Assembly: GCA_965222935.1 (NCBI GenBank)
Contig: CBDCVA010000002.1
Location: 744,001-808,000 of the forward strand
Direction of reading: 5' to 3'
DNA length: 64,000 nucleotides
Source of the DNA: CBDCVA01 sp965222935 [NCBI: Candidatus Latescibacterota bacterium]
GTDB lineage: Bacteria; Latescibacterota; CBDCVA01
The notes beneath the pieces are model-generated. The model had not been told where the DNA came from, did no database searches, and was given only the letters and a program-made list of their open reading frames with translations. This document shows, one piece after another, positions 13,114 to 61,330 of this stretch (position 1 is its first letter; each line of letters opens with the position of its first letter). Position numbers and translations under genes: made by a program.

Positions 13114-13185
13114 AAGCTCCCGATTCCATCACCACAGACGTCCTCAGCGAAGGCTTCTCCTTCGACTCGCGTTCTGGAGCCGAAT

Positions 13186-29525: not shown

Positions 29526-29780
29526 GTCGATCCGGGATACGATACGCTCCCGATGCGCAACTTCACTGCCTTCCGGTTCAACGATAAGAGGGACCCTCTG
29601 GAAGAGTTCGCGACGAGCGATTCCGTCATCCTCTTCGAGACCCGTTCGCACCACTTTGGGAAATCACTGATCTCGATGGTGGGCTATCACCGACAGACGA
29701 AAGAATTCATGGACCAGAGTGCCTCTGCCCGCAATCAGCGCTTCAGCCGCCTCTTCATCGAACTCGTCTCCGGCGCCTAA
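29526..29780 (+). pseudogene. Orphan C-terminal fragment of the giant OMP family
   Basis: The frame here (ATG at 29553, open a little upstream) encodes 'RNFTAFRFNDKRDPLEEF' then 'SDSVILFETRSHHFG' and ends 'QRFSRLFIELVSGA'. This aligns along its length with the last 80 residues of the three giant OMPs at 35881-44495, which read 'RNFFAFQFRDKGSPRESF', 'NTSAYFGTSL' and 'RFSRFFFEVVTGY'. The other 880 residues are absent, so it is a relic of a fourth copy about 6 kb from the array and on the opposite strand. The start of the next gene lies 23 bases after its stop. Confidence 0.7.
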
Positions 29781-29802
29781 TGTCCCCTTCCCCGCCCTCC
29801 CC

Positions 29803-32800
29803 ATGATCGCCCTGGTCTACGGCGTCATTTTCATCTCCGGTGCAGCCGCCCTGATTGACGAGGTCGCCTGGGTGCGCTTGCTCACCGGGGTCTTCGGCAA
29901 CACCACGTACGCGGCGAGCACCGTGCTGGCCGCATTCATGGGTGGGCTGGCGCTGGGCAGCTACGGATTCGGACGCCGTGTGGACGCGAGGGGGGCCACG
30001 CTGCGCACCTACGCGGTGCTCGAACTGGGGATCGGCGCCTTTGCGCTCGCGACGCCCTGGGCTTTCTCCAATCTATCAGTCGTCTATGCTCCGATCTTTC
30101 GAGGGTTCGGCGCGCCTGGCTCGCTCCTGGTCGCCGTCCAGTTCGCTCTCGCCTCGGCGGTGCTCATCGTCCCGACGACGCTGATGGGCGCCACATTGCC
30201 TGTGCTCAGCAAAACGGTCGTTCGCCACGTCCGCGAGGCTGGAAGCCGTGTTGGCGGTCTCTACGGCATCAACACCCTCGGCGCGACGGTCGGCTGCGTA
30301 CTCGCTGGTTTTCTCTTGCTCTTCACGCTCGGCGTCACGCGTTCCATCGTCCTCGCATCCCTCCTGAATTTCGCTGCAGCCCTCGGTGCGTTCCTTCTGA
30401 GCCGCCGGTTGGCGGCGGTGGAAGAGCCTGAGGAACTGAGCGTGAGACCCCATGTGGAGGCCGATGACGTGGCGTCCGATCCCAGGATACGCCTGGTCCT
30501 CATCGCGCTCGCAGTCTCCGGGTTCACCGCTCTGGCTTATGAGGTGCTCTGGACAAGGCTTTTGATCTTCGCCCTCGGTCAGCGAGGCTATGTCTTCGCG
30601 CTCATGCTGGGGACGTTCCTGACGGGGATAGCGCTCGGAAGTCTGCTGATGGCGCGCTGGCTCAGGTCCCGCGAAGCGCGGCTGGACATCCTGGGCGTGC
30701 TCGAGGTCGCGATCGGCGTCTGGGGAGTCTGTACCCTCGCTCTCTTCGGTCAGATCCCAGACGTTCTGGCGTGGCTGCGCAGGCTGATTGTCGTCGATGC
30801 TTGGGCGAACCTCGTGTTGCTCAAGGCACTGGTGGCCGCGCTGGTGATCCTGCCGCCGACCTTGCTCTTTGGGGCGACTTTTCCGCTCGCGACGCGCCTG
30901 GCTGCCCACCACGTCCGGCACGTTGGACGCGCGGTCGGGCGCGTTTACGCGTGGAACACCGTGGGCGGCATCGCCGGATCATGCGCCGTGGGGTTCGTCC
31001 TCGTCCCGGCGCTGGGCACCCACTGGACGATGATCACCATCGCGTTAGTGAACGTGGTGATTGGCGTCTGGGTGGCCGGCTCGCCTCTCGCAACACCTCG
31101 ACGCCGGCCAACGGTGGTAGCGGTGGGCGTCTGCGTCGTCGCCTCGGTCGCGTTGACCATAGCGGTTCCGGGCAACAGCCTCGACAGTCTCTTCGGGATG
31201 AACGAGCCCGGGTCAAGGCTTGTCTACCTCAAGGAAGGCCCCGCCGGTACCGTCAGCGTGCACCAGTACGCGAACCACCGGGTGCTCTCCGCCGGTGGGG
31301 TCAACGTCGCCGGGTCATCGTTCAGCCTGCGGACGACCCAGAAGCTCCAGGCTCACGTGCCGATGCTGCTGCACCCGAACCCGCGGCGCGTCCTGCACAT
31401 CGGTTTCGGCACCGGAGAGACCGCGCACGGGGCCAGTCTCTACCCGGTCGAGCGCATCGACGTCGTCGAGATCAACCCTAACGTGATCCATGCCGCCCTG
31501 CGCTTCTTCCCGGAGAACAACCGCAGCGTGCTCAACGACCCGCGCTTGCGGCAGTTCATCATGGACGGGAAGAACTATTTGGAGCTGACGGACCAGACCT
31601 ACGACGTCATCTTAAACGATTCGATCTATCCAGGCTTCGTCGGCAGCTCAGGCCTCTATGGCGAGAACCACTTCCGGGCCGCCCGAGACCATTTGGCACC
31701 TCACGGCGTTATCTCGTCGTGGATTCCCCTCGACCTGACGCGCGAGGCCATCTCCACCATCCTCCGCAGCTTTCAGACCGTCTTTCCGCACACCTCGTTG
31801 TGGCTCGCTACCAACCACCTCAACAGGCACTTGCTCCTCGTCGGCACGCTCGACCCCGTGCATGTGGACCTCGAGGCTTTCGAAAAGCGCTTCTTCGCCC
31901 ATGCTGAGGCAGACCTCGCCCCCGTCGGCCTGGGCGATCCGTATACATTGCTCGACAGCTACTTCCTAGGTGAGGAAGCTTGCCGCGAGTTCGCCGGCGA
32001 CGGGCCTACCCACAGCGATGACCTGCCTATCCTCGAGTTTCTGGCCGGGCGGACGGTCACGGATCGGCGGGTGCTTTGGGCCAAAAACCTCGAGGAGTTG
32101 CTGCCCTTACACAGGCCCGTGACGACGCTCGTGGCCGACTCGGCACCGGGTGGACCGAGCGAAGGCCATGTGTATGCGGCACTGGTCAAGCGGACGACGG
32201 CGAGCGGTCATCTTCTGGAAGCGATGTGGCGCTCGCTCGCCATGAAGTCGGGCGTCGAGACGGCGGTGATGGAGGCACTGAAGATCGATCCCGAGCATCA
32301 GGGCGCACGACACTTCCTTCGGAACATGGTCCTCGCGAAGCGGGAAGCGCCCGGGCGCGCAGCCAATGCGACCGAACACGTCAAGCGCGGGATCCGATTC
32401 GCCCAGCTCGGTGAGCCGGACAAGGCCATCGCCGAGTTCGAGGCGGCGCTGCGCCTGGAGCCTGGCTTTGCTGATGCTCACAGCAACCTCGGCGTCATCT
32501 ACCATCAGAAAGGGTGGACCGAGCGTGCGATCGCCGAGTTCGAGACGGCGATTGAGCTTCGGGGGCCTTTCCCTGAGGCGCTCTACAATCTCGGCCGAGC
32601 CTATGAGCGTCAGGGGATGGTGGAGGAGGCCGTCGCGGCTTACGAAGAAGCGGTGGCACTCCGCCCGGGTAACTGGGAGGCGTACGGAAACCTCGGCCTG
32701 CTCTTCGCGCGGACCGGAAGGCGTGAGCAGGCGATCGTCATGCTAGAGAAGGTCCTGGAGATCAAGCCCGGCAACCCGCTTGCCACGCGACATCTGCGGG

Positions 32801-32814
32801 AATTACGCGAGTAA
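29803..32814 (+). CDS. Membrane spermidine synthase-like protein with C-terminal TPRs
   Basis: About 1003 residues in three parts. Residues 1 to about 470 form a polytopic membrane domain of some 12-14 helices in two related halves, with 'AALIDEVAWVRLLTGVFGN' repeated as 'TALAYEVLWTRLLIFALGQ'. Residues about 480-740 are a spermidine synthase-like Rossmann domain with 'VLHIGFGTGETAHGA' (SAM-binding), 'IDVVEINPNVI' and 'YDVILNDSIYPGF'. Residues about 870-1003 hold three or four TPRs ('LEPGFADAHSNLGVIYHQKG'). Such fused proteins are common in environmental bacteria; true polyamine synthesis is unproven. The start at ATG 29803 is chosen because earlier frames overlap the OMP fragment; no good ribosome site is seen. 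Confidence 0.82.
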   Translation: MIALVYGVIFISGAAALIDEVAWVRLLTGVFGNTTYAASTVLAAFMGGLALGSYGFGRRVDARGATLRTYAVLELGIGAFALATPWAFSNLSVVYAPIFRGFGAPGSLLVAVQFALASAVLIVPTTLMGATLPVLSKTVVRHVREAGSRVGGLYGINTLGATVGCVLAGFLLLFTLGVTRSIVLASLLNFAAALGAFLLSRRLAAVEEPEELSVRPHVEADDVASDPRIRLVLIALAVSGFTALAYEVLWTRLLIFALGQRGYVFALMLGTFLTGIALGSLLMARWLRSREARLDILGVLEVAIGVWGVCTLALFGQIPDVLAWLRRLIVVDAWANLVLLKALVAALVILPPTLLFGATFPLATRLAAHHVRHVGRAVGRVYAWNTVGGIAGSCAVGFVLVPALGTHWTMITIALVNVVIGVWVAGSPLATPRRRPTVVAVGVCVVASVALTIAVPGNSLDSLFGMNEPGSRLVYLKEGPAGTVSVHQYANHRVLSAGGVNVAGSSFSLRTTQKLQAHVPMLLHPNPRRVLHIGFGTGETAHGASLYPVERIDVVEINPNVIHAALRFFPENNRSVLNDPRLRQFIMDGKNYLELTDQTYDVILNDSIYPGFVGSSGLYGENHFRAARDHLAPHGVISSWIPLDLTREAISTILRSFQTVFPHTSLWLATNHLNRHLLLVGTLDPVHVDLEAFEKRFFAHAEADLAPVGLGDPYTLLDSYFLGEEACREFAGDGPTHSDDLPILEFLAGRTVTDRRVLWAKNLEELLPLHRPVTTLVADSAPGGPSEGHVYAALVKRTTASGHLLEAMWRSLAMKSGVETAVMEALKIDPEHQGARHFLRNMVLAKREAPGRAANATEHVKRGIRFAQLGEPDKAIAEFEAALRLEPGFADAHSNLGVIYHQKGWTERAIAEFETAIELRGPFPEALYNLGRAYERQGMVEEAVAAYEEAVALRPGNWEAYGNLGLLFARTGRREQAIVMLEKVLEIKPGNPLATRHLRELRE

Positions 32815-35880: not shown

Positions 35881-38766
35881 TTAGTACCCCGTCACAATCT
35901 CGATGAAGAATCTGTTGAACGCCTGCTGCCGCAGCGCGTTAGTCTCTGGGTCATCGAACTGGATCCGTGTCCGGTGGAAACCGATATTCCCCGCGAGCTT
36001 ATAGCCCCAATATTCCGTCACGTTGCTGAACATGATCAACGAGTCGGTCCGCGAGAGATTGTTCTCAGGGTTCACCTTATCCTTGAGCTTGTAGGCTAGT
36101 GCATCGCGCGTCGCTGGGGCATCTGAAAAGCCCAGACGGAAGCCCTGTTGACCCAGCCGAATAGCTGTGCGCGGGGTGATATGGTAGTCCACGCGCAGGA
36201 TCGGCGCCACCCGAACCTCCTCAACCACCTTCTCGAACTTGCCGAAGTCCGTTTTCGGGTCACGCGTCAGCCGTCGCCATAGCATCTTGAACTGGGGCTT
36301 GATCACCAAGTTGCCCAGGTACCACGTATAGTCTATCCTGTGGCTCGTCGTCACATCGTTGACCACTGCGTCCGTCTGACTTTCAACCCCGAGAAACGAA
36401 TCGCGGAACGTACCGGGAAGCTGGTGGTTGCGCGTCCACTTGAGGTTGTTGATGATATTGAGATTATCGATTCGATCAATCCTCGTTCCCAGCCACGAGG
36501 TGCTGATCAGCGAGTTGCGCCGCGAGAGTACATCGAACAGCGGAGCACTGGCGGCCGGGCCTCCGAGGTCCCGCAGTTCCTCGATGTCGTAGACGTGGTT
36601 GGGGATGTCATCGCGCACCCGCTTGGTGTCGTGCCTGACGTCAAGCTCGATCAGCCGAGGCAGGTCGTACATATACGTGCCCTTGAAATAGGCCATCTCG
36701 TTCTTGCCGCCGCGGGAAGGCTCACGCTGTCGGATGACCCCAAGCGTTAACTCCATGTTGTCGACAGGTACCCCGGCGACGAACCAGTGTGGCCCCTCGA
36801 GATCGCGGTCGTAGAGCATGTCCGGCTTCTCATCGTTTTCGCGAACGTCGATGACACCGTTGTTGTTGAAGTCGTCGCCGTAGATGAAGGGCAGCGGATC
36901 GGAGTAGTAGAGAAGGAAGGGCTCATCCCAGTCCACGATGCCATCGCCGTCGCGGTCATCGTCGCGCACCCCGTCCATATCCGCGTCCTGGCCGGGGAAG
37001 ACGCCCGAGTCCTGGTTACCTTGCAGGCCGAAGGAGTCATTGTCGTCGTCATCCGCCCACTGGTCTAAGTCGTCGTTATCGTCAATGAGCGGGAAGGGCT
37101 GCGTGATGGGCGTATTACGCTCGTTGGGGTCCTCTTCTTTCCCGGCCTTGTCCGTGTAGAGTAACACACCAGCCCGGTGCTGTTTTAGATCGCGTCCTTC
37201 GCCGTTGTAGCCACCGCCGTAATTGGCCCCGATGTGGAAGTACTCGAACCCGGCCGTCACGAAACCCACCTGCTTCAGCACGTTCACGTACCATGCCGTC
37301 GACCGTTTATAGGTCAGTTTCTTCCCGTTGTTAATCGTCGGATACTGAGCGAAAACCCAGTTGTTGTTGAACTCACCTGTGATCTTCAGACCAACCAGGT
37401 TCATGTCCAAGTTCCAGCCTATGATACTCTGCCCTGTGGTGAACCCGTAATCGAAACGGACCTTGTTCTTGTTGGAGAGATCCTTGACGTTCCCCGGCGC
37501 GCGATCGATGACGTAAGGCCGGGTCTCCCGTTCCTCGAATTCACCCTCGCCCCGATTAGCCGCAGTGTTGAAGTAGCTATGTACCTGTGCGACCGAGATC
37601 CGGTAGTCGTTCGCGACGACCGCCTCCCACCGGGCGCGCACGACGTTGCCCAGGCTGTTGTCGATGGGGAAGCGATACTCGATGAAGGCGTTCTCGCCAG
37701 CAACCTGCCTCGCGCCATCGGCTTCGAAGACGTTCCCCACGTCGATGCGCCGTGCACCGGGGATAACGGTCACATTCCCCTCGGCGTCGAATACCTCGAC
37801 GTCCATAGCCCGGATCACGACCGTCGTGTCGCTCTGTGTCGACGTTACCGCCTCATAATCCACCCTGAGGATGAACTGATCCTCGAAGACCGCGGCTCCG
37901 CCTTCGCCGTCCGCCTGGGAATCATCCTCGAACCGCACGATGAGGAACCTAGGTGGGTGCATGTCCGACGTGGGTAACGTCCCGCGCAACCCGTTGCGCC
38001 GCGACCCTAGCGTCACGTTCGCCTGATGCTGGTTGATGAACGTCCCGCCGATGCGGATCGCTTCGCCAGCGCCGAAGGTGCTCTCCCAGTGCAGACCGAT
38101 GTTCTCGACGGGAGAGACTTCGAACCCAGAGGGCCGCACCGCCCCCGGGGCAGTGGGCCGCGCCTCTTGGATGGAAAACGGTTGGTTGCGGTCCACGGGC
38201 TGGTTTGTTCCCCGCCATTCGATAGCAGTGAACTTGTGGCGTTTGGAAGCGAGGTCCAACCGGACGCCCGCCATTCGGGTGAGATTGAGCGTCAGCGATG
38301 TGAACTTCGTCCGGATGTTGTCCCCGGCGGTCAGCCGCCCGGACCAACCACGGAAGCTGTCGCTGTTGATGATGACCCCGCCGAACAAGTCACCCTCGAA
38401 TTCCCGGAAGGAGCCCGCAGGCTCGACAGGTTCATCCCCGCGCAAGAAGATCCGCCCCGGGCGGGCGTCGCTCTGGCGGTAGAACATAAAGCCTTCCATC
38501 AAGTAGTTGCCGAGGAAGTCGTATTGCTTCTCGAGTTGAATCTCGCGCTTGTAGTTCCTGTAAGCCTCTTCGCCGTAATTGGCGTAGGCTTCCTGCTGCA
38601 GGCGCCCCAGCCACGGGTTCTCCACTTGCTGCCAGAGTTTAGGCCCCATCTGCTGCGCTTCCGCTTGGGATACCGCGAGCATCGCCCATCCGGCCCAGAG
38701 TACGGCCACTGACCCGAGCCAGGCCATCGTCCGAAAATGTCCCGTGTTGTAGCGTCTCATCGCCAT
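35881..38766 (-). CDS. Giant outer-membrane-type protein with EF-hand-like insert, paralogue 3 of 3
   Basis: A 961-residue exported protein with a signal peptide at 1-37 (cleaved near 'SQAEAQQ'). Shared family blocks are 'IRTKFTSLTLNLTRMAGVRLD' at about 150, 'APGNVKDLSNKNKVRFDYGF' at 420, and 'FEYFHIGANY'. At 560-660 an acidic run of D/N repeats ('GQDADMDGVRDDDRDGDGI', 'DDFNNNGVIDVRENDE') looks like calcium-binding thrombospondin-3/EF-hand loops around 'EPFLLYYSDPLPFIYG'. The last third, beta-rich with 'RHDTKRVRDDIPNHVYD', ends 'NRFFIEIVTGY' with an aromatic C-terminus. The family is not one I can name. It is the last gene of the TonB-like operon, starting 1 base after the stop of the preceding paralogue. 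Confidence 0.8.
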   Translation of the reverse strand: MAMRRYNTGHFRTMAWLGSVAVLWAGWAMLAVSQAEAQQMGPKLWQQVENPWLGRLQQEAYANYGEEAYRNYKREIQLEKQYDFLGNYLMEGFMFYRQSDARPGRIFLRGDEPVEPAGSFREFEGDLFGGVIINSDSFRGWSGRLTAGDNIRTKFTSLTLNLTRMAGVRLDLASKRHKFTAIEWRGTNQPVDRNQPFSIQEARPTAPGAVRPSGFEVSPVENIGLHWESTFGAGEAIRIGGTFINQHQANVTLGSRRNGLRGTLPTSDMHPPRFLIVRFEDDSQADGEGGAAVFEDQFILRVDYEAVTSTQSDTTVVIRAMDVEVFDAEGNVTVIPGARRIDVGNVFEADGARQVAGENAFIEYRFPIDNSLGNVVRARWEAVVANDYRISVAQVHSYFNTAANRGEGEFEERETRPYVIDRAPGNVKDLSNKNKVRFDYGFTTGQSIIGWNLDMNLVGLKITGEFNNNWVFAQYPTINNGKKLTYKRSTAWYVNVLKQVGFVTAGFEYFHIGANYGGGYNGEGRDLKQHRAGVLLYTDKAGKEEDPNERNTPITQPFPLIDDNDDLDQWADDDDNDSFGLQGNQDSGVFPGQDADMDGVRDDDRDGDGIVDWDEPFLLYYSDPLPFIYGDDFNNNGVIDVRENDEKPDMLYDRDLEGPHWFVAGVPVDNMELTLGVIRQREPSRGGKNEMAYFKGTYMYDLPRLIELDVRHDTKRVRDDIPNHVYDIEELRDLGGPAASAPLFDVLSRRNSLISTSWLGTRIDRIDNLNIINNLKWTRNHQLPGTFRDSFLGVESQTDAVVNDVTTSHRIDYTWYLGNLVIKPQFKMLWRRLTRDPKTDFGKFEKVVEEVRVAPILRVDYHITPRTAIRLGQQGFRLGFSDAPATRDALAYKLKDKVNPENNLSRTDSLIMFSNVTEYWGYKLAGNIGFHRTRIQFDDPETNALRQQAFNRFFIEIVTGY

Positions 38767-38767
38767 C

Positions 38768-41581
38768 TTAGTAGCCAGTCACCACCTCGAAGAAGAAGCG
38801 ACTGAAGCGTCTGTTCCGAACGGCTGCCAACTCTTCGTCTTCAAACTCCAGGTGCCGCCTGAGGAAGCCGACGTTCGCAAAGAGCGGGTAACCCCAGTAG
38901 TTCGCATTGCTGCTCAGCATGACGAGAAAATCGGTGGTCGATCGCTTCTCAGACTCCAAGACCTTGTCTATGACCTTTGCCGCGAAGAAGTTCCGGAACC
39001 TCCGATTGTCCGATCCCATCCGCCAGCCCTGCTGAGCGAAACGCAGCGTCGTCCTCTCCGTCACGTGCAGGTCCGCGCGGATGATGGGCGCTGTGCGCAC
39101 CTCGTAGAGGAGTAGTTCAGAGTCTTCGCCCTGGCCCGCCTTGGGGTTCCTTTTGATGATGCGCGTGAGCACCTTGAACTGTGGCATGATGTCAAGGATA
39201 CCCAGCCGCCAACGGTAGTCCGCCTTGTTGCTCAGGGTGTACTCGTTCAGCCAGGCGTCGATCTGCTCCGTCTTGTCCAGAAACGGTGTTCGCAGCGGCC
39301 CCCGATACTGGCGGTTCAGGATCGTCTTGAAGTTGTTAGTGATGCCGATCCCGCGCAGGGGCTTGTTGCGCATACTAAACCACGACGTGTGCACTAGGCT
39401 GTTCTGGCGCGTGAGTTGGTCGAAGAACGGGTCTCCGGACTGCGGCCCATCATCGTTCGGAAGCTGTCGCACGTCATAAACGTGGTTCGGGATGTCATCC
39501 CGAACGCGCTTGGTGTCGTGCCTGAACTCGAGCGTACCAAAGCTGCGGATGTCGGCATCGTAGGTCAGCTTGAAATACCGCATTTGGGTTTTGCCGCCGC
39601 GGCCAGGCTCTTCAAGGTCCATCAGGCCGGCGGTCATCCCCACGTCGCGGAAGGGTACCGCCGAGACGAACCAGTGCGGCCCCTCCAGGTCCTTGTCGTA
39701 GGGGTAGTCCGCCTTCTCGTCGTTCTCCCGGTCGTCGATCACCCCATTGTTGTTGAAGTCGTCCCCGTAGATGAACGGCAGCGGGTCCGAGTAGTAGAGC
39801 AGGAATGGCTCTTCCCAGTCCGGGATGCCATCGAAATCGCGGTCGTCGTCCGGCACGCCGTCCTGGTCCTCATCCACCCCGGGGAAGACCCCGGCTTCAG
39901 GACGGATCCCCAGTACCGTAGGACCGGGCCAATCGTTAAAGGCATCGTCGGCCCACTGGTCGCGGTCGTCGTTGTCGTCTACCAGCGGGAATTCCATCCC
40001 CGCAACAAGCGTCCGAACGTTCGGGTCACGGTCCCACCCACCTTGATCAGTCTGGAGCGTGAGCCCGCCGCGACGGCTGTTGTAGCTGGTATAATTGGGG
40101 GCGATGTGGAAATACTCGAAGCCCGTGGTGAAGGGCCCGATCTGTTTGAGCACGTTGACGAACCAGGCCGTCTCGCGCTCGGCCGTTATCTCCTCACCGA
40201 AATTGATGGGGAACTGGCTGAACACCCAGTTGTTGCTGACCTCGCCTTCGATCTTGACGCCCAAGAGGTTGAGCGTCCAGTCAAAGCTCAAAAGCGACTG
40301 GCCGGTCAGGAACCCGTAGTCGATCCTGATCCGCTGCTTGTTGGAGCCATCGGCAGGGTTGCCCGGGGCTCGCGCATAGATGATGTTCTGCGTCTCCCGA
40401 TCCACGAACTCGCCCCGATCGCCCTGCAAAGGATCGAAGAACGGGTGTCTTTGACGGATCTCCACCCGGTAGTCCTTGGCCACTACAGCATCAACCACCG
40501 CGCGCTTGGCCTTCCCCAACTCGACTGCCGTCGGAATCGTGAAGGCGTACTCGATGACATCCGTGCCATCCGCCTGCCGGAAGCCCGGGCCGATCTCTGC
40601 CCCCGGACTCCGGACCTCGCCGCCGCGGCCCACCGTTAACACGACCGTCGTATCGGGTAGGCCGGACCGTACGAACGTGACGCTCAAGGCGACCGATTCA
40701 TCGCCGACCAGAGCGCCGCCCCGCCCGTCTTCGGGCGAGTCATCACCGAAGACCACGATGATCTCTTTGGGGGGCTGCTGCTCGGACGGGATCGTGCCCC
40801 TTATGGGATTGAAGCGGGCGCCTTTAGTGACGTCCTCGGTGTGCTGATTGACGAAGCTTCCACCGAGCCGAACGGCGTCGCCGAACAGCTTCGATTCCCA
40901 CCTTGCGCCGGAGTTCTGTACGGGGAACTTCTCCCATCTGGCTGGTTCTCCCTCCGAGAAACCAACAGTGGGGTCAGGCCCGAACTCGAAGGGGACGGAG
41001 AAGGGAACATCGACCGCGCTGTTAAACTCATTCGTGCCCCGCCACTGCACGAGCGTGAACTTGTGGTAGCGCGGGGATGCAACATCGAACCGAATGCCGG
41101 TCATCCGCGTAAGGTTCAGCGTGAGGGGCGTGAACTTGGTCCGGATGTCATCGCCGAGCGTGAAGCGGAAGTCCCAACCTGAGTAGCTGTCGTTGAGGGC
41201 GAGCATCTCCTGAAACAGCGGCACGTAGATACCACTCTTGAGTTGAATGCTACCCACCGCATCCAGTCCCTTGCTGTCAAGCTGGTACACCCTACCCGGG
41301 CGTGCCTCGTTGTACTGCACTAGCCGGAATCCATCGAGCAGGAAGTTGCCCAGCGGGTCGAAGCGCTTGTCCACGTTGGCCTCGCCCTTGTACGAGATGT
41401 AGTCCTCATCACCATAGTTGAGAAATCCTTCGCGCTGTTCGCGCGACAGGAAAGGCTTTGCAGGCCGGCGCCACTCGCGCAGCATGCCGTCCTCGCCCCA
41501 GGCCGGCCATACCGGACTCAACACGACGACCAGCGCGAACGCGAAGAGGAACGCACGCACGAAGGATGGGAGGCGATGCAT
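38768..41581 (-). CDS. Giant outer-membrane-type protein with EF-hand-like insert, paralogue 2 of 3
   Basis: A 937-residue paralogue of its neighbours on both sides. The signal peptide is at about 1-30 ('FLFAFALVVVLSPVWPAWG'). The same blocks occur in order: 'IRTKFTPLTLNLTRMTGIRFD', 'FVNQHTEDVTKGARF', 'LPDTTVVL', 'APGNPADGSNKQRIRIDYGF', 'FEYFHIAPNY', an acidic calcium-loop insert at about 530-635 ('GVDEDQDGVPDDDRDFDGI', 'DDFNNNGVIDDRENDEK'), then 'RHDTKRVRDDIPNHVYD' and the terminal 'FSRFFFEVVTGY'. The frame is open to a TTG at 41611, but the ATG at 41581 avoids overlap with the preceding stop. Sits centrally in the operon. Confidence 0.8.
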   Translation of the reverse strand: MHRLPSFVRAFLFAFALVVVLSPVWPAWGEDGMLREWRRPAKPFLSREQREGFLNYGDEDYISYKGEANVDKRFDPLGNFLLDGFRLVQYNEARPGRVYQLDSKGLDAVGSIQLKSGIYVPLFQEMLALNDSYSGWDFRFTLGDDIRTKFTPLTLNLTRMTGIRFDVASPRYHKFTLVQWRGTNEFNSAVDVPFSVPFEFGPDPTVGFSEGEPARWEKFPVQNSGARWESKLFGDAVRLGGSFVNQHTEDVTKGARFNPIRGTIPSEQQPPKEIIVVFGDDSPEDGRGGALVGDESVALSVTFVRSGLPDTTVVLTVGRGGEVRSPGAEIGPGFRQADGTDVIEYAFTIPTAVELGKAKRAVVDAVVAKDYRVEIRQRHPFFDPLQGDRGEFVDRETQNIIYARAPGNPADGSNKQRIRIDYGFLTGQSLLSFDWTLNLLGVKIEGEVSNNWVFSQFPINFGEEITAERETAWFVNVLKQIGPFTTGFEYFHIAPNYTSYNSRRGGLTLQTDQGGWDRDPNVRTLVAGMEFPLVDDNDDRDQWADDAFNDWPGPTVLGIRPEAGVFPGVDEDQDGVPDDDRDFDGIPDWEEPFLLYYSDPLPFIYGDDFNNNGVIDDRENDEKADYPYDKDLEGPHWFVSAVPFRDVGMTAGLMDLEEPGRGGKTQMRYFKLTYDADIRSFGTLEFRHDTKRVRDDIPNHVYDVRQLPNDDGPQSGDPFFDQLTRQNSLVHTSWFSMRNKPLRGIGITNNFKTILNRQYRGPLRTPFLDKTEQIDAWLNEYTLSNKADYRWRLGILDIMPQFKVLTRIIKRNPKAGQGEDSELLLYEVRTAPIIRADLHVTERTTLRFAQQGWRMGSDNRRFRNFFAAKVIDKVLESEKRSTTDFLVMLSSNANYWGYPLFANVGFLRRHLEFEDEELAAVRNRRFSRFFFEVVTGY

Positions 41582-41597
41582 CAAGGCATTGATCCTG

Positions 41598-44495
41598 TCA
41601 TCGACCTGCAAAGCCTACGATCTCGACGAAGAACCGATTGATCTTTTCGTCTCGGAAGCGGCTGTCTCTGTCACGGAACTCGCTCCGACGGCGATGGAAG
41701 CCCAAGGAGGTGACCAGGCTGGTGCCAAAGTATGCCGACGTATTCTGGATCATCAGGACCATGTCGCTTGCGCTGAACGACTCCCGAGGGCTGCCCTTGT
41801 CCCGGAACTGGAAGGCGAAGAAGTTCCGCGCCCGCTCCTGGTGAAGGCCCAGGTTGTCGAATAACCGGTGCAGCCGAGGCAACCGCAGTCCTTGTTGGCC
41901 GAAACGGAACACCGTTTTGGGCGTGGCGTGAAAATCGACCTTTAAGATCGGAGCCGTCCACGACTGACTCCGCCGGAGGACCTTCGCGCCAGCTTTGAGG
42001 TTCTCCTGTTCGACGAGCGTCAAACGTTTGAACTGGGGCCAGATGCTCCAGCGGCCGCGTCTGAACCGGTAGTCCGCCCTGTTGACCATCAAAAACGACG
42101 TCACGCGCGAGTCGCTCTGCTCGGTGCCGTCCTTGAAGCGGCTGGGCAACTTGTGGTTCTGCATGAACTTGAAATTGTTCTCGATGTGCAGATTCAGCAC
42201 CTGTTTGTACTGGGTGCCAAGAAAGGCCGTGTGGACCAGAGAATTGAGCATTTCAAGATGGTCGTAGCCCCGGTCGAACGGCTGAGGTCCGAAGATGGTG
42301 GGCACGTCGCCAAAAACGTAGACGCTGTTGCGGACTGAATCGCGCACCCGCTTGGTGTCGTGACGCCACTCGACCACCCCGGCGTCGCCGCGGTCGAAGA
42401 TGTACGAACTGCGAAAATAGCGCCCCGCGTTCTCACCGCCGCCCGCGATCTCCTGCGTGTCGAACTGGCCCACGGAGAACTTCAAGCCGCGAGTCGGCAA
42501 GACCTCCACGAAGTAATGGGGGCCCTCCAGATCCTTGTCGTAGGGATAGTCGGGACGCTCATCGTTCTCCCAGTGATCGATCCAGAAGTTGTTGTTGTTG
42601 TCGAAGCCGTAGGTGAACTCCAGCGGATCGCTGTAGTAGAGCAAGAAGGGTTCGGTCCAGTCGGGAACGTCGTTGCTGTTCTGGTCGTCGTCGATGTGGC
42701 CGTCGAAGTCTTCGTCACGACCGGGATAGACGCCCCTGTTCAACTCGATATTGGTGCGGCTGGCGTTCTCCTTGAGGATGTCATCGTCAGACCACATATC
42801 CCCGTCATCGTTGTCGTCCACCCACGGGAACTCGGTCGTTTGCTTGACCTCCTTGCTCGCGCCCGCTCTGTCGGTGTAAAGCGAGGGACCGCCGCGCGTA
42901 CCCATGTATGACGCATACTTGGGCCCAATGTGGAAATACTCGAACCCAAGGTTGAGTGGCCCCGCCTCTTTGAGGACGTCGATGAAATAGGCCGCACCGC
43001 TTAAAGGTGAGAGCTGCACCCCCCGACCCGTCGGGAATTGAAAGTACGTGGAGGAAAGCGCGAATTCACCCCTTGCCTTCAGGCCCGCGAAGTCGGCAGT
43101 GAAATTGGAGCCGTAAATGGACTGCCCCGTCGTGAACCCATAGCGGAACTGGATGGGCGCTTTGTTCGAGAGATCCTGGATATTGCCCGGCGCCCGCGTG
43201 ATGATGTAGGGGTCCGTCTCGCGATCTTCGAACGCCTTTTTGTTCCCGAATTCGTCGAGCTGCTTGGAGCGACCTTCGCCCTTCGCGTTATAGCCAATGA
43301 AATAGGTGTGGTTCTGGCTGATTTCGACCCTGTAATCGTTGGCGACCATAGCCTCGACCATCATGGCAACCGGGGTGGGTGAGACGGGCATATCATAGCT
43401 GAAGGAGATCGTCTCGAAGCCGTTCGCCTCGATGTGGTCGCCTACAACGACGCCACCGGCGCTGCTGGACACGAACCGCGTGATGACGCTGTCACCCTCG
43501 GCGACCAGGGTCACTCTCGGTGCCCCAAAGACGGCCGCGCCCCCGCGGCCATCCTCCGGGGAATCGTCGGAGAAGGTCACAACAACCTGCTGCGGCGGCA
43601 GCATCGGGTACGGGAGGCCGCCCCGGAGGCTGGTGATGCCTTCGTCGCGGGTCACGTCCTCAGCGTGCTGGTTGACGAACGTGGCTCCAAGCTCCAAGGC
43701 ATCGCCCACTTGTGTGCGCCAGTGCGCGCCGAAAAACGGGACGGACCCGACTGAGGCCGCTCCCCGGATAGGCTTTCCAGCATGGAAATTGACGACTCTT
43801 CCACCCCAGTAGCTCTCGTAATTGGTGCGCCACGTCGTTCTACCGCTGGTATAGAGGAACGTCGCTTGGTGCTTCGTCGAGTTGATGTCGTAGCGGATGC
43901 CGGAGAACCGGGGGACCTTAAACGTCAGGTCCGTGAATTGGCTCCGTATCCAGTCCCCGGCGGACAGGCGCCACTGAAAGCCCTGGCCGGAATCCTGGAT
44001 CTGTACCAGGGTGTTGAACCAGAACCTGTAATGGCCGTGAACCGCTCGGACGCTCCCGTCATGGAGATCACCGAATCGAGGAAGGCCTATCCCTATCCCC
44101 GGACGCTGTTCCTCGAACCGCCATACCGTCTGGCCCTCCACCATGTAGTTCCCGAGGATGTCGAACTTCTTGAAGCTGTCCAGCCCGAACTGATAGGGAT
44201 TGTACTTCTCCCTGGCGTAGTTGAGGTAGCCATCGGGGTCCTCGCGGCGCAGGAAGGGGCGGACGAACTTGCCCTCGTGGGCGAACTGAGCTTTGACCGG
44301 AGACGGCCAGACGCTCCCGATGACGGCTGCAAGAGCTAGCGCCACCATGGACCCAAAGCGCCCTAGGCCTAAGCGTCTCGTGACGGCCGCAATAACTCGT
44401 TTCCAATCCTGTGAAGAATGGAAGAACGTGCCTGTGTTATGCCGCACCCTCATGAGGATACAACCCATTTTGAAGTGCCGCAACCCCTTTGGCAT
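41598..44495 (-). CDS. Giant outer-membrane-type protein with EF-hand-like insert, paralogue 1 of 3
   Basis: A 965-residue protein, the most diverged of the three. After an N-terminal stretch and a signal segment ('MVALALAAVIGSVWPSPVKAQ') it has 'IRSQFTDLTFKVPRFSGIRYD', 'FVNQHAEDVTRDEGI', 'VANDYRVEISQNHTYF', 'APGNIQDLSNKAPIQFRYGF', 'FEYFHIGPKY' and the acidic insert at about 555-660 ('GRDEDFDGHIDDDQNSNDV', 'YGFDNNNNFWIDHWENDE'). It ends 'NRFFVEIVGFAGR', so the terminal aromatic is followed by three extra residues. The true start may be the internal ATG at 44453, whose 'RHNTGTF' matches the N-terminus of paralogue 3. First of the three after the TonB-like gene. Confidence 0.78.
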   Translation of the reverse strand: MPKGLRHFKMGCILMRVRHNTGTFFHSSQDWKRVIAAVTRRLGLGRFGSMVALALAAVIGSVWPSPVKAQFAHEGKFVRPFLRREDPDGYLNYAREKYNPYQFGLDSFKKFDILGNYMVEGQTVWRFEEQRPGIGIGLPRFGDLHDGSVRAVHGHYRFWFNTLVQIQDSGQGFQWRLSAGDWIRSQFTDLTFKVPRFSGIRYDINSTKHQATFLYTSGRTTWRTNYESYWGGRVVNFHAGKPIRGAASVGSVPFFGAHWRTQVGDALELGATFVNQHAEDVTRDEGITSLRGGLPYPMLPPQQVVVTFSDDSPEDGRGGAAVFGAPRVTLVAEGDSVITRFVSSSAGGVVVGDHIEANGFETISFSYDMPVSPTPVAMMVEAMVANDYRVEISQNHTYFIGYNAKGEGRSKQLDEFGNKKAFEDRETDPYIITRAPGNIQDLSNKAPIQFRYGFTTGQSIYGSNFTADFAGLKARGEFALSSTYFQFPTGRGVQLSPLSGAAYFIDVLKEAGPLNLGFEYFHIGPKYASYMGTRGGPSLYTDRAGASKEVKQTTEFPWVDDNDDGDMWSDDDILKENASRTNIELNRGVYPGRDEDFDGHIDDDQNSNDVPDWTEPFLLYYSDPLEFTYGFDNNNNFWIDHWENDERPDYPYDKDLEGPHYFVEVLPTRGLKFSVGQFDTQEIAGGGENAGRYFRSSYIFDRGDAGVVEWRHDTKRVRDSVRNSVYVFGDVPTIFGPQPFDRGYDHLEMLNSLVHTAFLGTQYKQVLNLHIENNFKFMQNHKLPSRFKDGTEQSDSRVTSFLMVNRADYRFRRGRWSIWPQFKRLTLVEQENLKAGAKVLRRSQSWTAPILKVDFHATPKTVFRFGQQGLRLPRLHRLFDNLGLHQERARNFFAFQFRDKGSPRESFSASDMVLMIQNTSAYFGTSLVTSLGFHRRRSEFRDRDSRFRDEKINRFFVEIVGFAGR

Positions 44496-44556
44496 GAGCC
44501 ATCCCGGCGCGCCGGAAGCTACAGCGCGCTCGTTAAGGCCCTGAACGCCGCGGCGT

Positions 44557-45915
44557 TCAGTAGCCCGCAGCGACGGCCCGCTGGGCGAGCGAACCCTCCT
44601 GCGTTAGTGCAAAGACAATGACGTTGATGGAAAACTCTAAAAACTGGCGCCTACCCGCATCCGGGAAATAGTGAACCATTGACCCCGAGGCTATGACGTC
44701 CTTGGTCCACTTTTCCATCAAATCGGTGAGAATGGCCATGACGCGGCCATCGTTCCCGACGTACCAGTTGATCCTACGCAACTGGCCGTCCCTAGCGTTG
44801 CGAAGACCGCCGCCTATACCATAGGCCCTAAATCTACCGCCAACGTCGTTGCCGCCGGGCGGGCCGTCAAAGTCGTAGAACGAGTGGTAGACGGGATGGT
44901 CGTTGGGAAGCTCCACGCGGTTGTAGTGCCGCCCCAGGCGAAAGTCCTGAGTCTCAAGGGCGTCCTTGAGCAATTGGCGCTTGAACTGGACCACCTCCGT
45001 ATAGTCCGGAGAGATCTCGGGGGGGCCACCGGCCATGCTGTAATCCAGCCAGAGGAACCCACCGCTGGTCAGATACTGGCCGAGGTTTCTCAACTCCGCC
45101 CCGGAGGCGTCGAACTGATTGATCGTGTTGAAAACGGTCCACGGAACCTTGAGGAGTTCCGGGTCGTCCAGCGTCAGGTCGTCCAATACGTCCACATGAA
45201 TATCCGTGTACTCGTTCACGGATTCGGCCAAGTGTGTAAGCCCCTGCGGATTGCTGTTGCGGCCGTAATGGTATTCCGCGCCCGTAAGCTTCGTCCCCCG
45301 CGCCTTGAAGCTTGCTGTGGACGAGTACGCTCTGGCGATGTGGAAGAAGCCCGTTATCCGGCGCTTGTCCTCGGCATCCTGGATGATGAACGCCCGGTCC
45401 TTTCCCGTATCGAGCGCTGAGATGTCTATCATCTCGAGCGACAGGTCCAGCCGTACGCCGGGCACCTTATTCACGCTCACCATCCCTGATTCGATCGTCG
45501 GCTCCAGCGCGGGACGCTCGAACTCCGCAGTCTGCTCCACCGCCGTGACCGGACGCACCAGGCTATCGAGCACGCGGCTGGCCTTCGGCGCGCGGCTGAG
45601 TCCCCGGGTATCCACCTTCGCGCGCACCCGCTTCATCCGACGCCGCATCTTACGACGCTTGGGCTTCGGCGCCTTGCGCAGTTCCAGCGGTTTGATCAGC
45701 CGAGGCTCCCGCTTGATGAACCGCGTCGTCAGCGGCTTCACCGCCTTTCGATCCGCCGAAACCTTCCAGACCGCCAGAGACCCGTGAAGCGCAACGGCAA
45801 TCGCCAGGCTGATGAGCCGGATCTTTCGCACCTGGCGTCCGGCAACGGCCTCCAGATTGAGCCCCGCCGAGGGCGTATTAAAGCGCGATTCGTGCCTCAT
45901 CTGTTCGTCCGCCAT
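44557..45915 (-). CDS. TonB-like protein fused to a DUF4159 domain
   Basis: A 452-residue inner-membrane protein. A single helix at about 31-49 ('IRLISLAIAVALHGSLAVW') is followed by a Pro/Lys/Arg-rich stretch at 55-110 ('ELRKAPKPKRRKMRRRMKR'), the plan of TonB. Residues about 205-440 resemble DUF4159: 'EYHYGRNSNPQGLTHLAES', 'VFNTINQFDASGAELRNLGQYLTSGGFLWLD' and 'NDHPVYHSFYDF'. This periplasmic domain takes the place of the usual TonB C-terminal domain. GGAGGGG precedes the ATG. It heads the operon of three giant OMPs, 60 bases before the first, suggesting that it energises or assembles them. No ExbB/ExbD is in the window. Confidence 0.75.
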   Translation of the reverse strand: MADEQMRHESRFNTPSAGLNLEAVAGRQVRKIRLISLAIAVALHGSLAVWKVSADRKAVKPLTTRFIKREPRLIKPLELRKAPKPKRRKMRRRMKRVRAKVDTRGLSRAPKASRVLDSLVRPVTAVEQTAEFERPALEPTIESGMVSVNKVPGVRLDLSLEMIDISALDTGKDRAFIIQDAEDKRRITGFFHIARAYSSTASFKARGTKLTGAEYHYGRNSNPQGLTHLAESVNEYTDIHVDVLDDLTLDDPELLKVPWTVFNTINQFDASGAELRNLGQYLTSGGFLWLDYSMAGGPPEISPDYTEVVQFKRQLLKDALETQDFRLGRHYNRVELPNDHPVYHSFYDFDGPPGGNDVGGRFRAYGIGGGLRNARDGQLRRINWYVGNDGRVMAILTDLMEKWTKDVIASGSMVHYFPDAGRRQFLEFSINVIVFALTQEGSLAQRAVAAGY

Positions 45916-46213: not shown

Positions 46214-47092
46214 CTAATATCTCTCCTCCGCCGATTCCTCGATCCGAACCGCGCCGTCTTCGTCTACGGCGAGAAAGGGGACTCGACCCCGGTGATTGGA
46301 GTAGGGGCCGTACATGACGGCGCGCTGCGCTTCAGTCATGCCTTTCACGACTTCTTCACCCCACCAGATGTCGGGAGAGGCCAAGCCCCGTGCGGGACCG
46401 GTGCGAACGGAACTCTCCGACGCGTATTTGAAGAGGATGGACCGACGGGGCTCGTCGCTTCGCCAGGGATGTGTACCGTGCGTCTGAGCACCGTCCATAA
46501 AGAAGAGCACATCGCCGGCCTTCATCACCGGTTGTTCAACCACGCCCAAGTCGCCGTCGCACGTCCGCACACCGTGGGGCATGGGATACTTCGACTTGTG
46601 GCTTCCAGGTACGCACACAAATCCGCCATCGTCTTCGTTCACGTCGCTTAGTTGCCAAGTGACCGTAACGCCGCCGCAGTAGGGGATGCCGTTCTGGTGG
46701 TGATGAGCCACCCAGGGCTTGTGGACTTCTCCGCTACCATGAAGTACAAAGCCTTCGGTGCCTTTCACACCACCGATCATCTGTGGCCCTGAGTCCAGCC
46801 GAAATCCCCTTCCGCACATCACGTTCAGGCGCATGACAACCGCCGGATGCGCCAGCATATGGCGGAAGGGCTCGCAATACGGCTTCTCCGATTCCAGGAA
46901 CCCATTCAGCGTGGGGCGTCCGGTACCCGGCAAGGATTGCGATTCCTTAGCCAGATTCTTTTCACTTATCTGAACCCGATCTTCGTAGTGATCGACCGCC
47001 TCGTTAGCGGCGGCAAGTTCGTCGGGCGTGAGCACGTTCCTGACGACCAGGTATCCGGTCAGGTCCCAGAAGTAGCGTTCTTGTTCATCCAT
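46214..47092 (-). CDS. Phytanoyl-CoA dioxygenase (PhyH) family protein, copy 2
   Basis: A 292-residue PhyH-type protein of the group with 'DVNEDDGGFVCVPGSHKS' in the middle and 'GDVLFFMDGAQTHGTHPW' with a distal histidine towards the end. The proximal iron motif is not a plain H-x-D: the relevant region reads 'LHGSGEVHKPWVAHHHQNG', so the acidic ligand is unclear and the enzyme may bind iron differently or not at all. GGGAGA precedes the ATG at 47092. It lies between the giant OMP operon and a large membrane transporter on the same strand. Confidence 0.82.
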   Translation of the reverse strand: MDEQERYFWDLTGYLVVRNVLTPDELAAANEAVDHYEDRVQISEKNLAKESQSLPGTGRPTLNGFLESEKPYCEPFRHMLAHPAVVMRLNVMCGRGFRLDSGPQMIGGVKGTEGFVLHGSGEVHKPWVAHHHQNGIPYCGGVTVTWQLSDVNEDDGGFVCVPGSHKSKYPMPHGVRTCDGDLGVVEQPVMKAGDVLFFMDGAQTHGTHPWRSDEPRRSILFKYASESSVRTGPARGLASPDIWWGEEVVKGMTEAQRAVMYGPYSNHRGRVPFLAVDEDGAVRIEESAEERY

Positions 47093-47251: not shown

Positions 47252-49291
47252 TCAGTAGTACCGGGAATGCCCCGGGATGAGCCCTCCTTCGCCCGGAGAC
47301 AAGATGAGGCTGGCGATGACGTAGAGCGCGTACCCTGCGAGGTGGCCAACCACCAGCCCGATGAAGAAGGGCTTGCCCCGCTCGTAAAGGGACTGACCCC
47401 CGATCCTGATGAGGACCACCTTGGCGAGCCACGCAAGAAAGAAGGCGCCGGAATTGCATTTATTCCCATCCACGACCGGGCAGGTGAGGCCGATCGGGTG
47501 AAGCGGCCACCAGGGGAAGCGGTAGCGCGCGAAGATCAGAAAGCCCGTCACGGCCGCGCCGATGCCCATGAACCCCAATCTCTGAGGGTCGGGGCCGTGC
47601 GGGTTTTTCATCTTCGCGGTGATGTAATCGTAGCCGAAGCCGCCCTGATACACCCATCCCGCAAAGTTGTGAGCTCCAATCTGGTAAGCCGAATCGATGC
47701 GGTACCATAGCGCCACCGGAAAGGCGACCGCGAGGCCGAGGATCGTGGCGATGACAATGACCCGACCGTTCATCCTCAGCCAGTCCGCGAGCTTGGCGCC
47801 GTGCGCGGTGCCGGGCAGGAAGATGGTCCACAAATGCGTGATCCAACCGAAAGAGAACGCGATCCCCACCATGCTGGGCACCGACATGCCGGCCGATCCC
47901 AGCGTGTGCATCGTGAACGCCTGCGGTTCCAGCGTCGGCTTGACGTAGGGCAGACCGCTTTCGACGACGAGCCGCGTGGTCCCGAAGTAGGCCAGAACGG
48001 CTGCGGACAAAAAGACCAAGATCACAAGAGCCGACATCCCCGTCCGGGCCATGAAAGCGGCCGTGTACACGAGGCCTGCGGCAAGACAGATGACGGCAAG
48101 GCGCGGCGACATCAGTTCACGTTCATCGCTCTGTGTTCGGAGCCCCCGCCAGGCGCGGCGGAAGACGTCGGCCAGGTGGTGGCGTGCGGCCCAGACGCCG
48201 TAAAGGATGAAGACGCTGAAAGCGCCGTACGACTGCCAGGCCAAAGAAGCGTAGCCCTGACCATACTCGGCGACCTCGGCGCCGCCGGTCGCATAGCCGG
48301 TGCGGGTGAACAGAGCTTGCTGGAAGCGGACCAGAAACTGGAAGAACCAGAAACTGAACAGGATTTCGGGATTGACGAAGTAGCACAGTCCAATCATCCA
48401 GGGCGTAGCGGCGAAGATGATGGCGGGGAACGTCCTGCCGAGGTTGACCCACCCCCCGAACCGGATGAGGGGGAGTCCCGGCTTGAGAAACGTCACCGCG
48501 TTCCAAGCGAAGATGCCGAAGATTAGGAAGAAGGCTACGAGGAAGGCCGGCTTCTTGGCGACGGCGGGCAGGAGCGCGCGCGAGGCGCTGTCCTCCATCA
48601 ACGCCATGGGCGCATTCATCAAGGGAAAGAGCAGCCGCTCGTTCTCCACCCACTGCTTGCGAAACAGCGCCACCAGCGCGATGCCGATCAGGAAGAACGC
48701 CGCCAGCAAGCCCAACCACCACAACAGCGGAGGGAGCCAGGCCATCCACGGGACGCTTTCGCCCCTAGGCAGACCCTGGAAAAACCAGGTGATGACCTTG
48801 CCCGTGTCGTCGGGCACCATCCAGCCCGGGATTTTGTCCAGAAAGAGATCGGCCCATTCATTCTCGGGCGAGGCGTAGTAGCGTGGCGCCGTCAGGGCGA
48901 TGACCAGCCACATCACCACGCCCTGTGCGACCACCGCAACGAGCGCCATGACGAAGACGACGGTGATCTCCTGGGGCCGGAGCGCCCAGGCGCGGTTGGC
49001 GAGCTTGAAGGCTACGTTGACGACGAAGACGAAGAAAAACAGTACGAGGGCCGGCAGCCAGGGGAAATAGCCCATACCCAGCCCCCCGACGCGGTGTCCG
49101 AGGAGGAGGAACGGGAAGAGGTAGGCGGTGGCGCCCGCCGACAGGATACCCAGAACCAACGCGCGCACCGTGAGACCGGAGGCGCCGAGACCTAGCCGAC
49201 GCTGCGGCTGGACGGCTTCTTCGGTACGCGGGGCACTCTCTTCAAAGGCCACGACGGGGATCCTCCCGGCGGCACCGCCGTCAGGCGCCAC
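47252..49291 (-). CDS. DUF6785-type polytopic membrane protein (transporter-like)
   Basis: A 679-residue inner-membrane protein with about 14 hydrophobic helices, separated by loops such as 'RPQEITVVFVMALVA' and 'FFQGLPRGESVPWMAWLPP'. The layout resembles the DUF6785/DUF6784 family, remote relatives of oligopeptide transporters. The substrate is unknown. The N-terminal 30 residues are soluble; the start is GTG. In this catabolic block it could import a peptide or glycan breakdown product. The gene upstream on the same strand (CBM9-like) is separated by a likely terminator. Confidence 0.75.
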   Translation of the reverse strand: MAPDGGAAGRIPVVAFEESAPRTEEAVQPQRRLGLGASGLTVRALVLGILSAGATAYLFPFLLLGHRVGGLGMGYFPWLPALVLFFFVFVVNVAFKLANRAWALRPQEITVVFVMALVAVVAQGVVMWLVIALTAPRYYASPENEWADLFLDKIPGWMVPDDTGKVITWFFQGLPRGESVPWMAWLPPLLWWLGLLAAFFLIGIALVALFRKQWVENERLLFPLMNAPMALMEDSASRALLPAVAKKPAFLVAFFLIFGIFAWNAVTFLKPGLPLIRFGGWVNLGRTFPAIIFAATPWMIGLCYFVNPEILFSFWFFQFLVRFQQALFTRTGYATGGAEVAEYGQGYASLAWQSYGAFSVFILYGVWAARHHLADVFRRAWRGLRTQSDERELMSPRLAVICLAAGLVYTAAFMARTGMSALVILVFLSAAVLAYFGTTRLVVESGLPYVKPTLEPQAFTMHTLGSAGMSVPSMVGIAFSFGWITHLWTIFLPGTAHGAKLADWLRMNGRVIVIATILGLAVAFPVALWYRIDSAYQIGAHNFAGWVYQGGFGYDYITAKMKNPHGPDPQRLGFMGIGAAVTGFLIFARYRFPWWPLHPIGLTCPVVDGNKCNSGAFFLAWLAKVVLIRIGGQSLYERGKPFFIGLVVGHLAGYALYVIASLILSPGEGGLIPGHSRYY

Positions 49292-50406: not shown

Positions 50407-50481
50407 GATCCACCTCTCCATTGCTAAACTACGACGATGCAATGCTCCCTGACCGAGGGGTTCGGCGGTCCCTAGATAGGT

Positions 50482-56267: not shown

Positions 56268-56515
56268 AGCGTCCTCCGTCCATTGGATGATCGCCCCAGC
56301 GGCACCGAATGCCCGGCGTCCATGGGACGGGCGATCCGGTGCACCCATTATACCTAAACCGTCAAAGCAAAAAAAGCCTTGCACATGACTGTTGGGGAGA
56401 AACAGGAACGGTTTTTCCGGAACGGCACACCAGTGGAGAGGCCAAGATCACGTTCGGAGCGAGCGGATATGAATCGGGGCTTAACGGGCGATGCAGTGAA
56501 ACTGCCGGGGGTAGG

Positions 56516-61245: not shown

Positions 61246-61330
61246 ATTTCCCATATGAAAGTGCTGGGGTCGAAAGAACGGCCCATCGTTGACGACGCTA
61301 TGGGTGCGGCCTTCTCCAGCGCGGTCAATT
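61246..61330. repeat. Dispersed non-coding repeat, copy C
   Basis: CCCATATGAAAGTGCTGGG, CGAAAGAACGGC and GTTGACGACGCTATGGGTGC follow the order of copies A and B. GTTGACGACGC (61288-61298) and GCGCGGTCAAT pair partly as a hairpin. Its end overlaps the stop codon of the PhyH gene that starts at 62233. Confidence 0.5.

Follow-up and report, generated by a model that had tools for sequence, protein, structure and literature searches.

Four adjacent genes in a Latescibacterota genome raise the question of what a TonB-like protein with a foreign C-terminal domain does beside three very large proteins that belong to no named family. They lie on the minus strand of a 64,000-nucleotide stretch, referred to here as the window (contig CBDCVA010000002.1, positions 744,001–808,000). 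The first encodes a TonB-like/DUF4159 fusion of 452 residues (45915–44557), referred to as the transducer. It is followed by three giant proteins: giant a (965 residues, 44495–41598), giant b (947 residues, 41611–38768, with a TTG start and a later ATG possible) and giant c (961 residues, 38766–35881). A check of the open reading frames found all four where the first-pass annotation of this sequence had placed them. Consecutive genes are separated by a 61-bp gap, a 14-bp overlap and a 1-bp gap, and this close spacing makes co-transcription of the four plausible. A scan for promoters and terminators was uninformative, finding no more sites than in shuffled sequences (3 sites versus a mean of 3.5, and 8 versus a mean of 10.5), and a repeat scan found no tandem repeats. 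We propose, with a probability of roughly 0.6, that these genes supply a trans-envelope system, driven by the proton-motive force, with its outer-membrane component and its force transducer.

The transducer has a single predicted transmembrane helix near its N-terminus (residues 34–52, LISLAIAVALHGSLAVWKV; 45760–45816, minus strand; hydropathy maximum 1.79), which includes a histidine. The helix is followed by a basic linker rich in proline, lysine and arginine (45451–45759, its end placed by eye); the 68-residue stretch after the helix is 50% K/P/R, with a net charge of +23. Residues 220–437 (44605–45258) form a DUF4159 domain, matching PF13709 with an E-value of 5.1e-18 and a score of 65.8 bits against a curated Pfam cut-off of 25.9. 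These features are shared by the family. A hydropathy segment above 1.6 is present in all 25 members longer than 350 residues (out of 31), and each of the 22 that were scanned against Pfam, the window protein included, matches DUF4159 at E≤0.01. DUF4159 is the sole Pfam match in these 22; none carries a TonB/TolA C-terminal domain, or a vWA domain at E≤0.01. The predicted architecture of the 452-residue protein therefore shows a TonB/TolA topology with DUF4159 in place of the TonB C-terminal domain, much as the first-pass annotation had described both its N-terminus and its fused domain. The family profile also matches a solved structure, 4i66 (Hoch_4089; E 5.4e-18). The window transducer is 35% identical to proteins of related loci L001, L003 and L004 (L and G numbers designate loci and genomes used for comparison).

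Giants b and c are 48% identical, a and b 39%, and a and c 37%, over alignments of 932–990 columns. Such identity excludes chance similarity and bears out the view that the three are collinear paralogues. Their N-termini resemble signal peptides by eye. The segments EPFLLYYSDPL and RHDTKRVRD, singled out in the first-pass annotation, are unchanged in all three. Each giant also carries an acidic insert with EF-hand-like loops of the DxDxDGxxD type. The insert of giant a (42546–42818, minus strand, computed from residue numbers) has one such loop. Giant b has three, DEDQDGVPD, DRDFDGIPDWEE and DFNNNGVIDDRE (39719–39982, minus strand; modelled with a predicted local distance difference test score, pLDDT, below 50), and the loop search also found three in giant c, DADMDGVRD, DRDGDGIVDWDE and DFNNNGVIDVRE (36829–37089, minus strand). 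For the wider family, 101 giants longer than 800 residues were taken from 107 profile-matching genes for the loop, tree and hhalign sets, hhalign retaining 85. The loop occurs in 79 of these 101, compared to 2% of shuffles and, among other genes above 500 residues in the same loci, 32 of 240. A stricter 12-residue form is found in 61 of the 101, in 0.7% of shuffles and in 3 of the 240. The motifs and the acidic loops noted earlier thus stand; the aromatic C-terminus is a weaker point, as giant a ends in FAGR and the last residue is mixed among the 101 giants.

The earlier failure to name a family for the giants is upheld by profile searches. The three window proteins have no NCBIfam match and no Pfam match above cut-off. 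The one sub-threshold match is that of giant b to SlpA_C (PF21620; E 0.11, 11.3 bits against a curated cut-off of 35); giants a and c are unmatched at E≤1. Among 47 giants longer than 850 residues, out of 63 listed from the chosen loci, two match SlpA_C at E≤0.01. The Plug domain is matched neither by the window giants (E≤1) nor by the 47 (E≤0.01), and the giants were therefore rejected as ordinary TonB-dependent receptors. Sequence searches of solved structures gave no giant relative (one match at E 0.15, and none at E≤1 in another search). A plasmid search with giant b and a scan of viral contigs with nine giants found nothing.

Giant b was modelled with AlphaFold2. Outside a strand-rich insert (residues 245–377), we count 23 strands of at least eight residues, and the acidic insert (approximately 470–603 in model numbering) is unstructured. 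A Foldseek search with this model returned 30 matches at E≤0.001, all of them outer-membrane barrels, including SlpA, MtrB, LptD, porins, BtuB and XusA. The best match is SlpA (8ae1, E 4.6e-7; TM-scores 0.21–0.22). VIA-align, applied as a second look at the Foldseek matches and so leaving room for families beyond those listed, gave Z≥8 for 264 of 995 chains, the 50 best of the 264 being membrane barrels throughout. The highest Z is 13.9, for CymA (254 residues, root-mean-square deviation (rmsd) 11.6), and a TonB-dependent transporter has Z 13.4 over 233 residues (rmsd 3.6). Giant b thus looks like a large outer-membrane barrel in the model, as had been suspected for all three, with its family left unassigned by structure; giant a is a candidate barrel by homology to b, and giant c, 48% identical to b, probably another.

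Scanning genomes with the three giants identified loci L001–L004, which are titled Latescibacterota, Latescibacteria, Gemmatimonadota and Nitrospinota. In the tree, the giants of these four loci are nearly identical, with tip branches of 0.01–0.04. The near identity of giants in metagenome-assembled genomes titled Gemmatimonadota (L003) and Nitrospinota (L004) to those of Latescibacterota L001 points to possible labelling or binning errors. In L001 and L003, the gene order is three tandem giants, a ∼196-residue protein, a ∼126-residue protein and the DUF4159 fusion; L004 reaches the contig end, yet it retains giants and fusion. Giants (E≤1e-5) are found in 39 of the 64 genomes of the phylum to which G002 belongs, and in 44 of 291 genomes in a wider set of relatives, five of these lying outside the 64. 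DUF4159 fusions (E≤1e-20) occur in 38 of the 291. Within the phylum, 38 genomes have both, one (G006) has giants only, none has fusions only and 25 have neither; shared descent could account for part of this co-occurrence. Both families are expanded. Match rows for giants number 90 in G001, 68 in G002 and 66 in G003, with at least 41 distinct giant genes in the single-contig genome G002; fusions give 16, 18, 11 and 2 rows (pieces included) in G001–G004. A giant and a transducer occur together in 19 of 52 giant-bearing loci, the window not counted, so the linkage first noticed in the window is conserved, with the reservation that the loci were chosen around good matches in related genomes and their counts are not independent.

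In relatives, the linkage extends to motor genes. Locus L106 contains, in one run, a secreted protein, a PorV/FadL-like protein, two giants, a tetratricopeptide repeat (TPR) protein, a DUF5683-like protein, a 153-residue protein, ExbB, two ExbDs and the DUF4159 fusion. The ExbB and ExbD genes that the first-pass annotation had proposed to look for are thus found in the same run as giants, and L107 likewise has one ExbB and two ExbDs. Across eight genomes, 22 of 36 ExbD loci have a listed giant or fusion no more than 10 kb away (15 have a giant, 15 a fusion), as measured on listed positions with weak ExbD rows excluded. In 14 of 16 cases, the TPR protein, of ∼1080 residues, is encoded immediately after a giant; none of the 47 members of its cluster has a sorting tail. 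DUF5683-like and fn3-like proteins also recur in homologous loci, and FadL/PorV-like proteins in L106–L109. Genes for PPIC-type chaperones (a cluster of 21, whose scanned members carry PPIC) are no more than two genes from a giant in 12 of 21 cases. A 246-residue gene of L056, taken for ExbB from its size, proved to encode an ABC ATPase and was rejected.

Outside the 64-genome set, G104 has the order giant-ExbB-ExbD-ExbD and G249 has giant-gene-ExbB, both confirmed by Pfam; in a second G249 locus, a distant relative of the PorV-like cluster precedes a giant. In G248, G094 and G103, a giant adjoins a gene with a sorting tail. The ExbB proteins of G104 (L153, 14428–15486) and G249 (L158, 10252–11427) contain a carboxypeptidase-regulatory-like domain before the channel, a domain type linked to TonB contact in Bacteroidetes (PMC12204202).

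The recurrent secreted neighbours of the giants end in FlgD_ig, CHU_C or Por_Secre_tail domains, and some have F5/8 type C domains. For 33 of 41 listed giants in G002, a tail-sorted gene on the same strand is at most two genes away. Such a gene is the first upstream neighbour in 23 of 31 cases and the first downstream neighbour in 4 of 31; at six genes' distance, it is found in 1 of 13 cases upstream and in none of 29 downstream. Loci taken around fusions contain 20 tail-sorted genes among 150. The window itself yielded no tail of the Latescibacterota type. It does encode two paralogous, secreted-looking proteins of 320 residues (4793–5755 and 49480–50442, both minus strand), the second having no Pfam match above cut-off; their endings, VETSSWGTIKAMFK and VETSSWGQIKQLFK, are possibly a sorting tail.

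Evidence on function comes from DUF6785 membrane proteins, which may have a transport role. The two Latescibacterota genomes searched, G002 and G052, give 44 and 50 DUF6785 match rows. The G002 test used 42 of the 44, excluding a second piece and a below-cut-off row. A DUF6785 gene lies within 15 kb of the locus centre for 14 of 28 G002 giant loci (mean 5.1 on shifting, 6 of 2000 shifts as high) and within 20 kb for 16 of 28 (mean 6.5, 2 of 2000 as high); within 10 kb, the number (4 of 28, mean 3.6) is that expected by chance. Plug receptors are also present: each of eight genomes gives 13–28 match rows. In G002, all 20 rows lie farther than 20 kb from the 28 giant loci, although 3.6 would be expected within that distance. 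In the window, a DUF6785/DUF6784 membrane protein (47252–49291, minus strand) is encoded two genes upstream of the transducer.

In the giant tree, the three triad positions of Latescibacterota fall in separate clades (supports 0.995, 0.70 and 1.0), while the window trio forms one clade (0.997) beside the single giants of L056 and L112 (0.976); the tree therefore suggests two or more origins of tandem giant triplets. The nearest relative of the window transducer is that of L082 (support 0.83), a locus with no giant nearby. As its giants group instead with those of L056 and L112, different giant and transducer paralogues seem to have been joined more than once. A second giant class, in L058 and L060–L065, is made up of gene pairs that fall into two clades (supports 0.82 and 1.0), with no transducer in the 20 kb covered.

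That the barrels are encoded near genes for chaperones, surface partners and motors points to an energized outer-membrane machine; that the giants belong to a motor-linked machine of this kind is very probable. In the mechanism we envisage, an ExbB-ExbD motor would move the DUF4159-tipped transducer, whose tip would touch the giant barrel on its periplasmic side, either directly or via the TPR protein. This contact would open or cycle the barrel, which could then import large substrates together with an exported, lectin-like partner, in the manner of SusC/SusD pairs. For ExbB/ExbD and the TPR component, the window copy would depend on genes located elsewhere in the genome. For uptake as the role, we put the chance slightly short of even. 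Still more tentatively, many Latescibacterota, and a few genomes outside the phylum, may have replaced SusC/SusD as their main multi-copy receptors by giant, calcium-loop, Plug-less barrels with exported lectin-like partners, energized through ExbB-ExbD and DUF4159 transducers.

SusC/SusD systems consist of a barrel and a surface partner and occur as dozens of paralogues per genome. The proposed machine would share with TonB-ExbB-ExbD and SusC/SusD a motor powered by the proton-motive force, a single-helix transducer, a large barrel, a surface partner and this multiplicity. However, the giants have no Plug match, the transducers have no match to the TonB C-terminal domain, and the place of SusD is taken by a secreted protein with a sorting tail, in most cases encoded upstream. 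Any likeness would therefore be convergence, not kinship.

The nearest precedent is a set of TolA/TonB-like transducers with a vWA tip, encoded beside TPR, tolQ-like and paired tolR-like genes, whose function is described as unknown (Williams-Jones et al. 2025, PMC12204202). As characterized there, these proteins also join a transmembrane helix, through a linker that is proline-rich or disordered, to a globular C-terminal domain with no relationship to TonB. The system described here is a variant with a DUF4159 tip and a candidate outer-membrane partner family, the giants, as well as tail-sorted surface proteins. The published neighbourhood (TPR, one tolQ-like and two tolR-like genes) has its counterpart in L106 and not in the window. 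That paper expects further such systems, and a word-start search of its main text found no mention of DUF families or Latescibacterota. Searches of the open-licence PubMed Central literature found no mention of DUF4159, with or without TonB, and nothing joining Latescibacteria with type IX secretion, or with outer membrane and type IX secretion together. For Latescibacteria, the relevant passages of Youssef et al. 2015 (PMC4454575) describe porins and Plug-type import of B12 and iron, and not the giant family. The conserved system is real and no description of it was found in these searches, its mechanism being inferred from parts and neighbours. The first-pass suggestion of an undescribed energized surface or transport machine is accordingly supported by the unmatched giants, the barrel model and the conserved linkage, with the qualification that TonB-like transducers with foreign tips are already published.

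To our knowledge, few proton-driven trans-envelope machines have been recognized: Ton, Tol-Pal, Agl-Glt and the gliding/type IX motors. If the proposal is correct, another would be added, with its own outer-membrane partner and dozens of copies in a candidate phylum. The giants would be a concrete outer-membrane partner for transducers without a TonB tip, the group whose function is called unknown in PMC12204202, and both DUF4159 and many giant proteins outside any named family would gain a starting point for study. Should uptake also prove to be the role, the strategy of a multi-copy barrel with a surface binder evolved more than once.

Several observations weigh against this proposal. The model of giant b is weak (pLDDT 55.7, predicted TM-score 0.55, 14 sequences), and its TM-scores to the Foldseek matches are approximately 0.2, so that a barrel is indicated and a family is not. 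The model of the DUF4159 fusion was too poor for use (pLDDT 31). A histidine in the transmembrane helix is a hallmark of TonB. Among the 25 long transducers, 11 have it, the window protein included, and eight have SxxxH, the window protein excluded (its helix keeps the histidine, with alanine replacing the serine); the histidine is missing from most triad-type transducers, even those with adjacent ExbB/ExbD. All the evidence for the uptake step comes from neighbouring genes. The PorV/FadL, DUF5683 and fn3 labels are Pfam matches below cut-off, for the PorV-like gene of G249 Pfam gives nothing at E≤0.001, and the sorting-tail profile was built in part from the giants' own neighbours.

The linkage itself is also incomplete. 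L002, in G002, has the triad without a fusion, the orthologous fusion lying ∼2 Mb away. L002 and L057–L081 hold giants with no transducer in the stretch covered, while L054 and L082–L091, taken around fusions, hold no giant. G104 and G249 have motor genes and no fusion at E≤1e-20, and the DUF4159 fusion is therefore not a fixed part; since G248, G094 and G103 also lack it at this threshold, the giant-motor link is wider than the giant-fusion link. The window has no ExbD match in its 64 kb, and its only ExbB-like gene is a member of a Zorya system. Neither of its two TPR-bearing genes is of the large (∼1080-residue) type, and the DUF5683-like, fn3-like, PorV-like and PPIC profiles find nothing in it. 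The window copy is reduced, with no matching ExbB/ExbD or large TPR gene in 64 kb.

Three other explanations for the giants have to be weighed against the proposed machine. The same motor and transducer could drag barrels and tail-sorted surface proteins in a gliding or surface-adhesin machine, resembling the Agl-Glt system of Myxococcus, in which AglR is the ExbB, AglQ and AglS are ExbDs and GltG is a TonB-like transducer (PMC3169522). Compared by parts list only, the two resemble each other: one ExbB with two ExbDs, as in L106 and L107, a TonB-like transducer, TPR proteins and outer-membrane proteins. However, the Glt outer-membrane proteins described there are short (GltH, 209 residues; GltA, 256 residues), and GltG has an FHA and a TonB domain, whereas the 22 scanned transducers have only DUF4159. 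The presence of at least 41 giants in one genome fits diversified receptors better than a single motility machine, and the excess of DUF6785 genes near giant loci at 15–20 kb, though not at 10 kb, also speaks against motility, which we regard as unlikely. It is quite unlikely that the giants form a surface-assembly or export platform that anchors or passes type IX-sorted proteins beside SprA/PorV. The prevalence of a tail-sorted protein as first upstream neighbour in G002, the weakly PorV/FadL-like gene adjoining giants in L106–L109 (with the distant, Pfam-unmatched relative in G249) and the presence of SprA (6h3j) at rank 45 of the Foldseek matches would fit such a platform, as would the general resemblance to type IX secretion: a giant outer-membrane barrel, a PorV-like neighbour and tail-sorted proteins. 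The giants are, however, about half the length of SprA (frames of ∼2100 residues), many per genome and without profile kinship to it. The hhalign probability against five partial SprA frames is 1.3%, and with SprA present separately, the identification of the giants as SprA was rejected. SprA_N and PorV were each found in 12 of 12 genomes, apart from the listed giant loci, and one of these genomes, G030, has both without giants.

A passive porin or an SlpA-like S-layer scaffold, with coincidental transducer neighbours, would account for the many giants that lack a nearby transducer. It would also agree with SlpA as top Foldseek match and with the SlpA_C matches in two giants, the SlpA/SDBC proteins of Deinococcus being large barrels too. 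It is nevertheless improbable: TM-scores to SlpA are low, the Pfam matches are weak and few, and giants recur beside ExbB/ExbD and the transducer, the ExbB/ExbD association extending beyond the phylum set.

The remainder of the window contains several recognizable features. The ExbB-like gene at 13516 was rejected as a partner of the transducer, as it belongs to a Zorya type II anti-phage system (13516–16450, plus strand; best PADLOC matches to ZorA2, E 5.7e-75; ZorB2, E 7.3e-93; and the HNH protein ZorE2, E 5.4e-69). Upstream of it is an rRNA operon (8028–13304, plus strand) with 16S (8028–9588), two tRNAs, 23S (10060–13113) and 5S (13188–13304). Several PhyH-like dioxygenases, together with sulfatase-like and Gfo/Idh-like proteins, were recognized by eye at 6152–7129, 46214–47092, 55389–57346 and 61325–62326, the PhyH assignment at 46214 being supported by Pfam. 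Finally, the gene at 29719–32814 (plus strand) encodes a spermine/spermidine-synthase domain fused to C-terminal TPR repeats, and a 932-residue relative, 35% identical, is found in G007 (L142, 7646–10444).

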